Shown here: positions 8,754-37,788 of the stretch, piece after piece
Layout of the letters: the number at the start of each line of letters is the position of its first letter
Numbering within the stretch: position 1 is the stretch's first letter
DNA from: Halomonas sp. HL-93
Lineage (GTDB): Bacteria; Pseudomonadota; Gammaproteobacteria; Pseudomonadales; Halomonadaceae
Assembly: GCF_900086985.1 (NCBI RefSeq)
Contig: NZ_LT593974.1
Span: forward strand, 1 to 64,000
DNA: 64,000 nt
Direction of reading: 5' to 3'
The notes under the pieces: model-generated
What the model was told of the DNA's origin: nothing
Database searches by the model: none
The model's input: only the letters and a program-made list of their open reading frames with translations
Made by a program: the position numbers and the translations under genes

Positions 8754-8859
8754 GTTATTCTCCTTATTGCCGCTTACACGGCGCGTCAAACTATGATAAT
8801 TCTCATCATAAAGCACCCGGCGACACAGTAAAAATAGCCAACGCCGTAGGCGGCCTTAT

Positions 8860-33818: not shown

Positions 33819-34871
33819 ATGCCCTTGCCGTCGCGTCTAACCCCGCGTTGTTTAGCACGTGGGTTGCTGCTGCTCAGTAGCCCTCTAATGGCGACGGCTA
33901 CCCAGGCAGCCCCCGAGGCTTTGGCCGCCTTAGGCGCTGGTAAAGACGCCGTCAGCGTGGTCGGGGTTTCGTCCGGCGGTTACATGGCCACCCAACTGGC
34001 GGTGGCCTTCCCGGAACGCTTCAGCGCGGTGGGTGTGTTGGCCGCAGGCCCTTGGGGCTGCGCGGAAGGGTCATTAAGCCGAGCGCTAAATACCTGTATG
34101 TCGACCGCAAGCGGCGTGCCGTCTCTGGATAGGCTTGAAAATCGCCGCCGCCGTTATGAATCGGCCCAGCAGGTCGGCCCGCGGGAAACGCTCAGTCAGC
34201 TAAGGGTTTTTTTGTGGCACGGTGAAGACGACGATGTCGTGGAGCCTGAGGTAGGTGATTTATTGGCGGCCCAGTGGGAGCGCTGGCTGGCCACTAGCGA
34301 GCAACTGCGCGTGGTCCGGCGCGATGATACAGGCCACGGCTGGCCGGTGCGCTTACGGGCCGAAATGCCGTCTCCCCAGTCCCTAGGCGACTGCCAGCAA
34401 GGTGGGGGCAGTTACTTACTTGCCTGCGATGACGATGTGGCCGGGGAGATGCTGAGCTTTCTGCACCCCGATCGTGACGCAGATAGAGAAGGCCAGGGAG
34501 AATTACGCGCCTTTGACCAATCTGAATTTGCCGTAAGCGGCATGGCCGATAGCGGGTTTGTTTACACGCCCGAAGGGTGTGAGCAGGGCGGCTGCGACGT
34601 CACGCTGGCGCTTCACGGCTGCCAAATGAACGACGATGCGTTTGTGCGCCATAGCGGGCTCAACGACTGGGCGGCGACGCATCAGCAGATTGTGCTTTAT
34701 CCCCAGGCAAAGAGCAGCATGATGAACCCTCAGGGTTGCTGGGACTGGTGGGGATACGCCGAGGGTGCCTCGCAATTAACTCCGCTGCACGATACGCGTG
34801 AAGGCGCCCAGGTTCAGGCGTTGATGGCTATGCTGGGTCGCTTGCAAACACCGTCTGACCGGCAGGATTAA
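33819..34871 (+). CDS. Poly(3-hydroxybutyrate) depolymerase-like esterase, exported
   Basis: A 350-residue alpha/beta-hydrolase with an N-terminal signal peptide (about 1-30) and the lipase box GVSSGGY, nucleophile Ser51. A conserved cysteine-rich C-terminal half (CEQGGCDVTLALHGCQMNDDAF, then YPQAKSSMMNPQGCWDWWGY) is typical of the short-chain PHB depolymerase group with the lipase box near the N-terminus. Whether it acts on the polymer or on oligomers is unknown. No substrate-binding domain is seen. It overlaps the SCO1 gene on the opposite strand by four bases. Confidence 0.82.
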   Translation: MPLPSRLTPRCLARGLLLLSSPLMATATQAAPEALAALGAGKDAVSVVGVSSGGYMATQLAVAFPERFSAVGVLAAGPWGCAEGSLSRALNTCMSTASGVPSLDRLENRRRRYESAQQVGPRETLSQLRVFLWHGEDDDVVEPEVGDLLAAQWERWLATSEQLRVVRRDDTGHGWPVRLRAEMPSPQSLGDCQQGGGSYLLACDDDVAGEMLSFLHPDRDADREGQGELRAFDQSEFAVSGMADSGFVYTPEGCEQGGCDVTLALHGCQMNDDAFVRHSGLNDWAATHQQIVLYPQAKSSMMNPQGCWDWWGYAEGASQLTPLHDTREGAQVQALMAMLGRLQTPSDRQD

Positions 34872-35458
34872 CCATCCAGTGCCTGCTCCAGCGCAGCGCT
34901 AAGTCCTTGGGGAGTCGGGGAATACAGCACGCGTTGTAAAACGTCGCCATCACGATTGACTAAGTAAAGCGACGAACTATGGTCGATGGTGTATTCGATG
35001 GCGGAATCGGGCGCCTCAACGCGCCGCGTGATGACCCCATAACGGGACATCACATCATCCAGTTCGGACTGGTTTCCCCTGGCCCCGATAAAGTCTTCAC
35101 CGAAAAACGCCAGATACTCTTCGAGCCGTTCCAAGGTATCGCGTTCCGGGTCAACGGTGACCATGACAGGCACTACCTGTTCGCGTTGTGATGTCGAAAG
35201 CTCAGCCAGTGCCTGGCGTTTCACCGACTGCGTCATGGGGCATACGTCAGGGCAATATGTATAGCCGAACGACACCAGGGCAACTTGGTCGTCGGCAAGC
35301 TGGGAAAGCGAAAAATCGCCTTGGGTGGATGGTAGTTCAATCTCACCGCCGGGAGGTATGTCGCTTTGCGGAGATAGCGTGGCCTTGTAGAGTGCGACGC
35401 CACTCGCAACGACCAGTGCGGCGGCGCCGACACCAAGCCATAATTTTGGAAAGGCCAT
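34868..35458 (-). CDS. SCO1/SenC family copper-binding protein
   Basis: A 196-residue membrane-anchored, periplasm-facing thioredoxin-fold protein. One N-terminal transmembrane helix (about 4-24), then the copper site CPDVC (Cys69, Cys73) in FGYTYCPDVCPMT and a distal His in IDHSSSLYLV. SCO proteins load copper into cytochrome oxidase. The ATG at 35458 follows AGGGAG and is preferred to 35506. It is divergent from the AEC permease gene; no oxidase gene is nearby. Confidence 0.92.
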   Translation of the reverse strand: MAFPKLWLGVGAAALVVASGVALYKATLSPQSDIPPGGEIELPSTQGDFSLSQLADDQVALVSFGYTYCPDVCPMTQSVKRQALAELSTSQREQVVPVMVTVDPERDTLERLEEYLAFFGEDFIGARGNQSELDDVMSRYGVITRRVEAPDSAIEYTIDHSSSLYLVNRDGDVLQRVLYSPTPQGLSAALEQALDG

Positions 35459-35574: not shown

Positions 35575-36492
35575 TTGGAAAGCATTAGCGGTGCCCTTGG
35601 CCCCTTGTTTCTATTGATATTACTGGGCGCGGCACTGGGCGTTAAACGCTGGCCCAGCGATACGTTCTGGCCGCATATAGAGCGGCTGATCTATTTTGTG
35701 CTGTTTCCTGCCATGCTGGTGGCGACGCTGGCAACAGCGGATGTAAGCCAAGTGCCCGTTACCCGCCTGGCCCTGGTACTGCTTGGCGCGATGGCCATAT
35801 TTGGCGTATTGCTGTGGCGGTTGAGAACACAGCTGAAGTTGACGCCAGCGGCGTTTACGTCGGTGTTTCAAGGTGCCGTGCGATTCAATACATACGTAGG
35901 GGTGGCCGGGGCGGCGGCTTTGCACGGCAGCGCAGGCGCTACCACTGCCGCCGTTGCGGTGGCGCTGATGGTGCCGGTGGTCAACATCATGTGCGTGGCC
36001 AGCTTTGTGGCCGCAGGTACGCTGGGTAACACCAGCCTCGGCAAAAGCATTATGGCGCTGATCAAAAACCCTTTGATTCTGGCGTGTTTACTGGGCATTG
36101 CGCTGAATCTTTCAGGCATAGGGCTTCCGGGTTGGAGCCACGCTACCGTCGACCTATTAGGCCGCGCTGCTTTGCCGCTTGGTCTGGTCGCTGTCGGCGT
36201 GGCGTTGCGCCCGGCCGCGCTGCTGCGTGTTGACCGCGGTGTGCTGGCCACTAACAGTGTCAAGCTGATACTCATGCCGGCACTGGTGCTGGGGCTCTCT
36301 TGGCTAGTAGGTCTGGATACGGTGAGCCGTGATGTCGCGTTGCTGTTTGCCGCGCTGCCTACCGCTACGTCGGCGTATATTTTGGCCCGCCAACTGGGCG
36401 GCGATGCTGAATTGATGGCGGCGATTATTACCGGTCAAACGCTGTTGGCGATGCTGACGCTGCCCGTTTGGCTTCAACTGGCGAGCGGATGA
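35575..36492 (+). CDS. AEC-family transporter
   Basis: A 305-residue inner-membrane protein with about ten helices of the auxin-efflux-carrier/bile-acid-transporter fold. IYFVLFPAMLVATLA near residue 38 and an inverted-repeat architecture are typical; bacterial relatives carry malate, malonate or other small acids, and the substrate here is unknown. The start is a TTG preceded by AAGG; no ATG lies near the expected N-terminus. The gene ends just before the candidate Fur-regulated RNA. Confidence 0.83.
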   Translation: MESISGALGPLFLLILLGAALGVKRWPSDTFWPHIERLIYFVLFPAMLVATLATADVSQVPVTRLALVLLGAMAIFGVLLWRLRTQLKLTPAAFTSVFQGAVRFNTYVGVAGAAALHGSAGATTAAVAVALMVPVVNIMCVASFVAAGTLGNTSLGKSIMALIKNPLILACLLGIALNLSGIGLPGWSHATVDLLGRAALPLGLVAVGVALRPAALLRVDRGVLATNSVKLILMPALVLGLSWLVGLDTVSRDVALLFAALPTATSAYILARQLGGDAELMAAIITGQTLLAMLTLPVWLQLASG

Positions 36493-36522: not shown

Positions 36523-36551
36523 TTGACGCGGTAAATGAGAACGATTACATT
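36523..36551 (+). promoter_or_regulatory. Strong sigma-70 promoter overlapped by a Fur-box-like operator
   Basis: TTGACG (36523-36528), a 17-base spacer, TACATT (36546-36551). The spacer and -10 hold GTAAATGAGAACGATTACA (36531-36549), which by my count matches 12 of 19 positions of the Fur consensus GATAATGATAATCATTATC, including the core AATGA..A...ATTA. An operator covering the -10 region would block transcription when iron is plentiful. Confidence 0.65.
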
Positions 36552-36557
36552 GTGGTT

Positions 36558-36676
36558 GTGGCGTTTGATGAGACGCCACAGACCACGACAGAAAGCGACA
36601 GTTTCCTGTCATGGTTTCTCCCTCTCATTGCTAGTCACGGTCTTTTGCCGCTCCTTTGGAGCGGCTTTCTTTTTTC
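36558..36676 (+). ncRNA. Candidate iron-responsive small RNA (RyhB/PrrF-like by position and form)
   Basis: About 119 nucleotides from the predicted start to a textbook terminator, with no convincing ORF. It opens with a perfect hairpin, TGTGGCGT (36557-36564) and ACGCCACA (36573-36580) around an eight-base loop. A single-stranded-looking central region follows (about 36581-36646) with a pyrimidine-rich stretch and CTCATTGCT at 36624-36632, reminiscent of the target-pairing core of RyhB, which contains CATTGCT. It ends with GCCGCTCC, TTT, GGAGCGGC and TTTCTTTTTT. The promoter carries a Fur-like box. The call is inference from structure; no homology search was possible. Confidence 0.6.
36647..36676 (+). 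terminator. Rho-independent terminator of the candidate small RNA
   Basis: GCCGCTCC (36647-36654), TTT loop, GGAGCGGC (36658-36665) and a T-rich tail of ten T in eleven bases. It is one of the strongest terminators in the window and does not belong to the AEC gene, which ended 155 bases earlier. Confidence 0.9.
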
Positions 36677-36791
36677 TAATCTCTGTTAGTGCCTCTCTTC
36701 TTATGCTGCCTCTTTGGCTACTTATCTTCGCTTAGCAGCTGATTTTAAACGCATGCATAGCTGAAACGTTTCTAACGCGGATAGGGCGTCA

Positions 36792-36876: not shown

Positions 36877-37788
36877 ATGAATGATACCCAAGATCTTTTC
36901 CCCACTCGCTTGGAACGAAAGTTGGGAATGTTTGAGCGCATCGACCCAGTGGTATATGGCGATGAGTCTCAGCTTGCGAATGGCCCATTGGACAGGTCGC
37001 AAATTGATGAGTATGAGAGAAAAGGCTTCCTCTCATTTGAAGGGTTTTATGATGCTGACGATATGCAGGCTTTTCTTCAAGAGCTACGTGAGTATGAAGA
37101 CGATGCTGATCTGAAGCTCTCCGAAGGGACTATTCTTGAACCAGGGCGTGAAGAGATACGCACGGTGTTCGGTATCCATCAAGTATCAAAACGCTTCCAG
37201 CGCCTGACTCGAGATCCAAAGTTGCTGGCGATCGTTAAGCAATTGCTGGGCAGTGATGTCTATATCCATCAGTCACGGATCAACTATAAGCCAGGGTTCA
37301 AAGGTAAGGGGTTTGAGTGGCATTCGGACTTTGAAACATGGCATAGCGAAGACGGCATGCCGCGTATGCGTGCGCTAAGTTGTTCAATCGTCCTCACTGA
37401 CAACGGCGAGTTTAACGGTCCGCTGATGCTGATTCCCGGCTCGCACCGGTACTTTGTTCCCTGTGTGGGACGAACGCCGGAAAATAACTACAAAGAGTCG
37501 CTGAAAAGCCAAGAGGTAGGGGTGCCGCCCGCGAGCAGCCTTCGCGAGATAATGCTTGAAAACGATATTGAAGCACCCAAAGGCCCAGCAGGGTCTCTGG
37601 TAATTTTCGAAAGCAATACCATGCACGGCTCCAATATCAACATGTCCTGCTGGCCAAGAAGTAACCTGTTCTTTGTCTACAATAGTGTTGAAAATACACT
37701 TCACGACCCTTACTGCGGTAACCGGCCTCGCCCAGAATTTCTGGCCAACCGCACCGAGTGGGAGCCCCTTGAGCCCCTTCAGGAGTAA
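36877..37788 (+). CDS. ectD: Ectoine hydroxylase
   Basis: A 303-residue iron/2-oxoglutarate-dependent dioxygenase of the phytanoyl-CoA hydroxylase superfamily that converts ectoine to 5-hydroxyectoine. The EctD signature FEWHSDFETWHSEDGMP is intact; His149, Asp151 and His250 (in NTMHGSN) form the iron triad, and Arg260/Ser261 lie near the 2-oxoglutarate site. The start has a strong GGAGGAG site. It stands alone: no ectABC genes are in the window, so it is not part of an ect operon here, but it is 7 kb from the ectoine uptake genes. Confidence 0.95.
   Translation: MNDTQDLFPTRLERKLGMFERIDPVVYGDESQLANGPLDRSQIDEYERKGFLSFEGFYDADDMQAFLQELREYEDDADLKLSEGTILEPGREEIRTVFGIHQVSKRFQRLTRDPKLLAIVKQLLGSDVYIHQSRINYKPGFKGKGFEWHSDFETWHSEDGMPRMRALSCSIVLTDNGEFNGPLMLIPGSHRYFVPCVGRTPENNYKESLKSQEVGVPPASSLREIMLENDIEAPKGPAGSLVIFESNTMHGSNINMSCWPRSNLFFVYNSVENTLHDPYCGNRPRPEFLANRTEWEPLEPLQE

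Follow-up and report, generated by a model that had tools for sequence, protein, structure and literature searches.

Positions 36523-36676 (+) of the window, which is the whole 64,000-nucleotide stretch of Halomonas sp. HL-93 DNA that was analysed, very probably contain a single-copy gene for a trans-acting small RNA (sRNA) of ~119 nt that is of the PrrF type and repressed by Fur; judging from sequence comparison, the probability of this reading is put at about 0.9. By covariance homology, the gene is a divergent homologue of PrrF. It is ordinary in kind and new in place, namely a branch of PrrF that has gone unannotated in Halomonadaceae. A Fur-controlled sRNA had been proposed at this locus from the letters of the DNA alone (hereafter the original prediction), and this proposal is now supported by PrrF homology, covariation, conservation, operator matches at genes resembling TonB-dependent receptors, and a genome that contains Fur-family and hfq genes.

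Parts of the gene and relationship to PrrF

The segment 36523-36676 (+) has a promoter with a Fur-like operator lying over it, followed by two hairpins, a core rich in pyrimidines and a terminator. The -35 hexamer TTGACG (36523-36528, +) is separated by a spacer of 17 nt from the -10 hexamer TACATT (36546-36551, +), which in relatives reads TATATT, TACATT and similar, and the Fur-like operator AAATGAGAACGATTACATT (36533-36551, +) spans the spacer and the -10 hexamer and, in the alignment to PrrF, falls on the Fur-box part of the model. The predicted sRNA of ~119 nt (36558-36676, +), the start of which was placed at 36558 from the promoter spacing, is predicted by folding to begin with a perfect hairpin of 10 bp and a 4-nt loop (hairpin 1; 36557-36580, +), followed by hairpin 2 (36581-36616, +), which is indicated by both folding and covariation. 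The most conserved block (36607-36651, +) contains the single-stranded core TTTCTCCCTCTCATTGCTAGTCACGGTCTTTT (36617-36646), the counterpart of GCUAAUCACGGU in PrrF; within the core lie CATTGCT (36626-36632) and the putative sdhC-pairing seed UUGCUAGUCACGGU (36628-36641, +). The transcript would end at an intrinsic terminator (36647-36675, +) with an 8-bp stem (36647-36665), a 3-nt loop and a T tract. The 120-nt segment 36557-36676 folds with -48.1 kcal/mol versus -29.4 kcal/mol (sd 3.6) for its shuffles (z -5.2), and none of 200 shuffles was as good. Thus the TTGACG-N17-TACATT promoter (36523-36551), the perfect 5′ hairpin, the pyrimidine-rich middle with CATTGCT, and the terminator closing a transcript of 119 nt (about 36558-36676) are all present as the original prediction had them, with hairpin 2 missing from its list of structures.

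In a cmscan search, the locus matches the PrrF model (RF00444) over its entire length (1-150 of 150) with 48.3 bits (E 1.9e-7). This score is below the curated gathering cut-off of 90 bits, and for that reason the gene is not counted within RF00444 as the family is now delimited; a gathering-threshold Rfam search of the whole 64-kb window returned no family. Five other Rfam rows with E-values of 0.023-9.7 (mir-427, SQ1002, mir-548, HIV-1_SL3 and RAGATH-33) were taken as chance. The locus had been predicted to encode an RNA of the RyhB/PrrF type, of which the PrrF likeness is borne out by covariance homology in both directions, whereas the RyhB model gave no row among the six Rfam matches at E up to 10.

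The reverse direction was examined with R1, a covariance model built from Halomonad transcripts alone and containing neither promoter nor operator. R1 matches Halomonas sp. HL-93 at 36557-36675 (144 bits) and finds all 10 RF00444-positive loci of family f21 on which it was run (E 5e-7 to 8e-5), together with one further weak match (E 0.92) in the f21 locus L092; on eight control loci it gave no match at E up to 10. From the RF00444 scores over the cut-off, we infer f21 to be the Pseudomonas family: a sample of 390 genomes of the order contains 58 with a match to RF00444, and the 17 of these that exceed the cut-off are all in f21. The scores are highest in f21 (127-163 bits) and grade down to Halomonadaceae, with other families in between, and the shared core in the further stretches that were read is CUCAUC-x-GCUARUCACGG or close to it. 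In the multi-genome searches of the family and the order with RF00444, which used stricter filters, Halomonas sp. HL-93 itself was not listed.

Like PrrF1 and PrrF2, the Halomonad gene combines a promoter with an overlapping Fur box, a 5′ hairpin, a core with GCUARUCACGG and a terminator, and the covariance models of the two groups detect each other. The lengths are also alike, ~119 nt in Halomonas sp. HL-93 compared with 116 and 114 nt for PrrF1 and PrrF2 of P. aeruginosa, as given in the available part of the source (PMC2851614). The gene differs from PrrF in its score (48.3 bits versus 127-163 bits for the f21 copies), in the upstream part of the core, which reads CUCCCUCUCAUU as opposed to CUCCUCAUCAG in the f21 copy L092, and in being present once in the genome. 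In the regulatory logic of RyhB, NrrF, BrrF, HrrF and IsrR, an sRNA is made when iron is low and represses the mRNAs of iron proteins. The same logic would be expected for the Halomonad sRNA, which differs from these RNAs, as far as Rfam holds them, in that PrrF is the only one listed for it at E up to 10. No native PrrF of Halomonas or its relatives appeared among the literature matches listed, which is a weak negative given their coverage. With the curated cut-off applied, the PrrF model leaves all 275 Halomonadaceae genomes searched without an annotation, whereas R1 finds the gene in 258 of them. Halomonads are industrial hosts in which, according to the accessible parts of two papers, engineered PrrF scaffolds serve for knock-down (PMC12164125, PMC13101641); the P. 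aeruginosa origin of the scaffold is read from the name PrrF1-2-HfqPa that appears there. A native PrrF relative could interfere with such engineered scaffolds or replace them.

Conservation, covariation and neighbouring genes

The original prediction had named a lack of conservation in related genomes as a finding that would speak against it, and had proposed a covariance and conservation check across Halomonadaceae. Matching DNA was found in all 82 genomes of the genus and, when the lists of the R1 and RF00444 searches were read together, in 267 of the 275 genomes of the family; the hairpins, the core and the terminator are conserved, and the helices covary. Taken singly, R1 detected the gene in 258 of 275 Halomonadaceae genomes (22 of 24 genera), RF00444 in 157 (23 of 24 genera; none over the cut-off) and a plain DNA search in 236 (17 of 24 genera). 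The genomes missed by both R1 and RF00444 are G170, G171, G174, G180, G216, G217, G223 and G274.

The locus set of the genus comprises 82 loci, from 81 genomes (G053 was left out) and a second locus of G026. Copies with operator and core were collected by loose patterns (at most 6 of 19 operator positions and 3 of 13 core positions changed), which gave 104 copies from 80 genomes and the second G026 locus, with none from G076, where the contig ends. Among these 104 copies, the columns of the -35 hexamer are 0.90-1.00 identical and those past the T tract fall to 0.30-0.58. The columns of the block 36607-36651 are mostly 0.97-1.00 identical (minimum 0.87), and 15 of the 19 operator columns reach at least 0.93 with the other four at 0.52-0.71, values that are favoured for operator and core because the copies were picked with a loose pattern of these same elements.

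Covariation was assessed in 47 non-redundant transcripts. All three helices covary, with two-sided changes in 9 of 23 pairs. Paired cells amount to 99.0% compared with 93.9% in shuffles, of which none of 500 was as good, and on the weakest measure, that of further pair types, 14 of 500 shuffles did as well; because the 47 rows are related, these counts are not probabilities, and the control with slid partners, in which pairing is at most 42.7%, agrees with them. Hairpin 1 shows two-sided changes in 5 of 6 modelled pairs (alignment A1), and hairpin 2 has 98.9% of its cells paired and two-sided changes in 2 of 10 pairs. The terminator stem also covaries, being GCCGCTCC/GGAGCGGC in some copies and GCCACTCC/GGAGTGGC in others. 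In one copy (L046, genome G045), most of hairpin 2 is lost and the operator, core and terminator are kept. In four copies (L050, G019; L084, G071; L085, G072; L043, G034), an insertion of 13 to ~37 nt splits the core between CTCATTG and CTAGTCACGG, and the insertion in G071 repeats part of the seed.

These data also bear on the reading of the locus as a short coding gene or as a chance arrangement of promoter, hairpin and terminator. An ORF of 66 aa does run through the locus (36535-36735), and promoter-like and terminator-like hits occur in shuffled sequence too (means 1.3 and 2.8). The locus, however, is conserved in 82 of 82 genomes, its helices covary and its indels are of many lengths, so that this reading is extremely improbable. 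The ORF itself was rejected as a gene, because it starts within the operator, upstream of the deduced transcription start, and relatives carry indels of many lengths; the original statement that no gene lies inside the unit therefore holds.

The gene is flanked upstream by an AEC-family permease gene (35575-36492, +; PF03547) and downstream by an ectD-like PhyH dioxygenase gene (36877-37788, +; PF05721). Both neighbours are as first described, but ectD is lineage-specific: the permease is found at 79 of 82 loci and ectD within the examined flank of only 16 of 82, and a link between the sRNA and this hydroxyectoine gene is therefore not general. In 77 of 79 loci, the permease stop codon is 38-63 bp upstream of the first Fur box, which would fit a reading of the element as part of the 3′ UTR of the permease gene or as an attenuator, rather than as an independent gene. 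That reading is very improbable, since the sRNA gene has its own conserved promoter and operator, the PrrF homology covers the promoter part, and second full copies that lie farther from the permease retain both promoter and operator.

Probable Fur operator, candidate targets and proposed mechanism

The element at 36533-36551 is probably a Fur operator that overlaps the promoter. The Fur-like box of the original prediction rested on a match of 12 of 19 positions to the textbook consensus, which by itself is at chance level: 94 positions in the 64-kb window, both strands together, match the consensus at 12 of 19 or better, and the count was rejected as proof. The box is instead supported by its conservation and by its likeness to sites at TonB-receptor-like genes. 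When the operator pattern derived from the family was searched in the 4.14-Mb genome, one exact site (this operator, by construction), two sites with one mismatch and three with two mismatches were found, and at up to three mismatches there were 27 sites versus 11 for the reversed control. Both one-mismatch sites are centred 33-34 nt before the first possible start of TonB-dependent-receptor-like genes, one of which is divergent from a gene for an iron-siderophore-type ABC ATPase (these genes were named by reading their translations rather than by a family search). The three two-mismatch sites fall within ORFs that are unrelated and give no hint of iron uptake. The genome has two Fur-family genes and one hfq gene (TIGR02383, 99.9 bits).

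Among the Fur-like sites noted in Halomonas sp. HL-93, the one at L103 (1035935) is 33 nt upstream of where a TonB-receptor-like gene could first start, and the one at L115 (1078358) is 32 nt upstream of the corresponding point of an iron-siderophore-type ABC ATPase gene; both are likely to belong to the Fur regulon. In the window, a site with three mismatches to the operator pattern (8790-8807) is found where a hemC-like gene, so named from its translation, begins; this gene is divergent from a PAS-domain-like gene.

Two candidate targets were chosen in advance, sdhC and sodB, and of these, pairing of the core with sdhC is probable. The start of sdhC reads GCC-GUG-AAU-AGC-AA, and the core UUGCUAGUCACGGU would cover 14 nt with one mismatch and one G-U pair. 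The search covered 31 genomes, 30 with a readable start and one (G053) with a fragment only, and the pairing spans the GUG start codon in all 30. The site is identical in 28 of the 30 genomes and has one base changed to a further G-U pair in the other two, a conservation that is partly due to the site being coding. Its score is -18.1 or better in 28 genomes and -14.6 in two, and -18.1 was reached by 94 of 12000 random 140-mers of the window and in 14 of 3000 shuffles of the core. With duplexfold energies, 163 of 500 shuffles were as good as the sdhC site in the genome of Halomonas sp. HL-93, and 7 to 46 of 100 in six other genomes; by this measure, no gene tested stood clearly above shuffles. 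The complement of a 17-nt stretch of the core occurs at five other sites in the whole genome versus nine in the reversed control, none of them at a gene start.

Other genes were considered in connection with the reading that this is a PrrF-derived, Fur-controlled sRNA the regulon of which has moved from iron sparing to, for example, respiration assembly (SCO1/SenC) or osmolytes (ectD). The ribosome site and start codon of a SCO1/SenC-type gene (34868-35458, -), 1.1 kb from the sRNA gene, match the 5′ part of the core at 12 of 13 positions; the core differs from that of Pseudomonas before the shared GCUARUCACGG; and sodB, a known PrrF target, has no good site in the genome of Halomonas sp. HL-93 (about -6, with 349 of 500 duplexfold shuffles as good). 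The SCO1/SenC site, however, although the strongest among 60 ORF starts of the window, has a strength at which ~0.5 sites would be expected by chance, and it is kept in 3 of the 5 loci with the gene in the flank, the locus of Halomonas sp. HL-93 included, so that SCO1/SenC was rejected as a target. EctD enzymes use iron, but the ectD site does no better than shuffles do (218 of 500 as good) and the gene is near in few loci, whereas the sdhC site is conserved. A moved regulon is accordingly regarded as unlikely.

For the preferred reading of a PrrF-type sRNA, an iron-sparing role is likely, and we infer from the sequence that the RNA responds to iron, uses Hfq and acts by repression. When iron is sufficient, Fur-Fe2+ bound to the operator would block sigma-70 RNA polymerase. 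When iron falls, Fur would leave the operator, and the RNA would be made and end at its terminator. Hfq would then present the single-stranded core, which may pair with the start region of mRNAs that encode dispensable iron proteins, sdhC first. Such pairing would block ribosomes and mark the mRNA for RNase E, and the outcome would be iron sparing.

Tandem copies and arrays in relatives

The number of units varies among the 82 loci of the genus: 53 have one unit with a Fur box, 18 have two and two have three, where the degenerate second and third boxes of G055 were counted as boxes. Six loci (L031, G048; L032, G043; L033, G002; L035, G078; L036, G080; L037, G065) carry arrays, in which a first unit with a Fur box is followed by one to four units without one. 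In the remaining loci, the box of G045 was missed by the script and is present by eye, and two loci have no scored unit. When a tree was built from the permease, five array genomes, all but G080, fell into one supported clade (99/88); G080 is placed in a wider supported group alongside genomes without an array.

Most downstream units of the arrays keep the core and the terminator, with a changed core base (TCACAG) in 2 of 15. Five downstream units (in G002, G048, G065 and G078) have an altered seed, and in these later units CTTTCCTTGC stands in place of CTCTCATTGC. No promoter-like site was found in the downstream units of G002, whereas in G048 every downstream unit contains a weak promoter-like site inside hairpin 2 (9/12; TTGGCA-16-AAAAAT); because of this difference, the downstream units may be silent, transcribed by read-through or transcribed from internal promoters.

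PrrH is the read-through RNA of the tandem prrF1-prrF2 locus, as described in the available parts of the sources (PMC2851614, PMC10597452), and tandem units likewise occur in some relatives of Halomonas sp. HL-93. In Halomonas sp. HL-93 itself no PrrH is expected, because there is only one copy. Both prrF genes of P. aeruginosa are Fur-repressed and, among pseudomonads, the tandem arrangement is confined to P. aeruginosa, according to the part of that paper at hand (PMC2851614); the arrays of the six genus genomes differ in that their downstream units have no Fur box. It is tentatively suggested that the arrays, which occur in a group of Vreelandella, work as a relay, in which one Fur-controlled promoter serves one to four further hairpin-core-terminator units that lack a Fur box. 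Polymerase passing one leaky terminator after another would produce a ladder of RNAs with several seeds, which would extend the principle of PrrH, and the units with an altered seed (CUUUCCUUGC instead of CUCUCAUUGC) might address a second set of targets; the gene of Halomonas sp. HL-93 would be the single-unit form. Recent amplification alone could also explain the likeness of the array units.

The tandem copies in Halomonadaceae and in other families offer independent cases in which the purpose of tandem PrrF genes can be tested. In other families of the order, three loci (L315, G523; L316, G624; L317, G374) have between three and five PrrF-like copies in tandem, all with operator-like boxes and with five copies in G523, and three such copies, also with operator-like boxes, were seen in another genus of Halomonadaceae (L319, G273).
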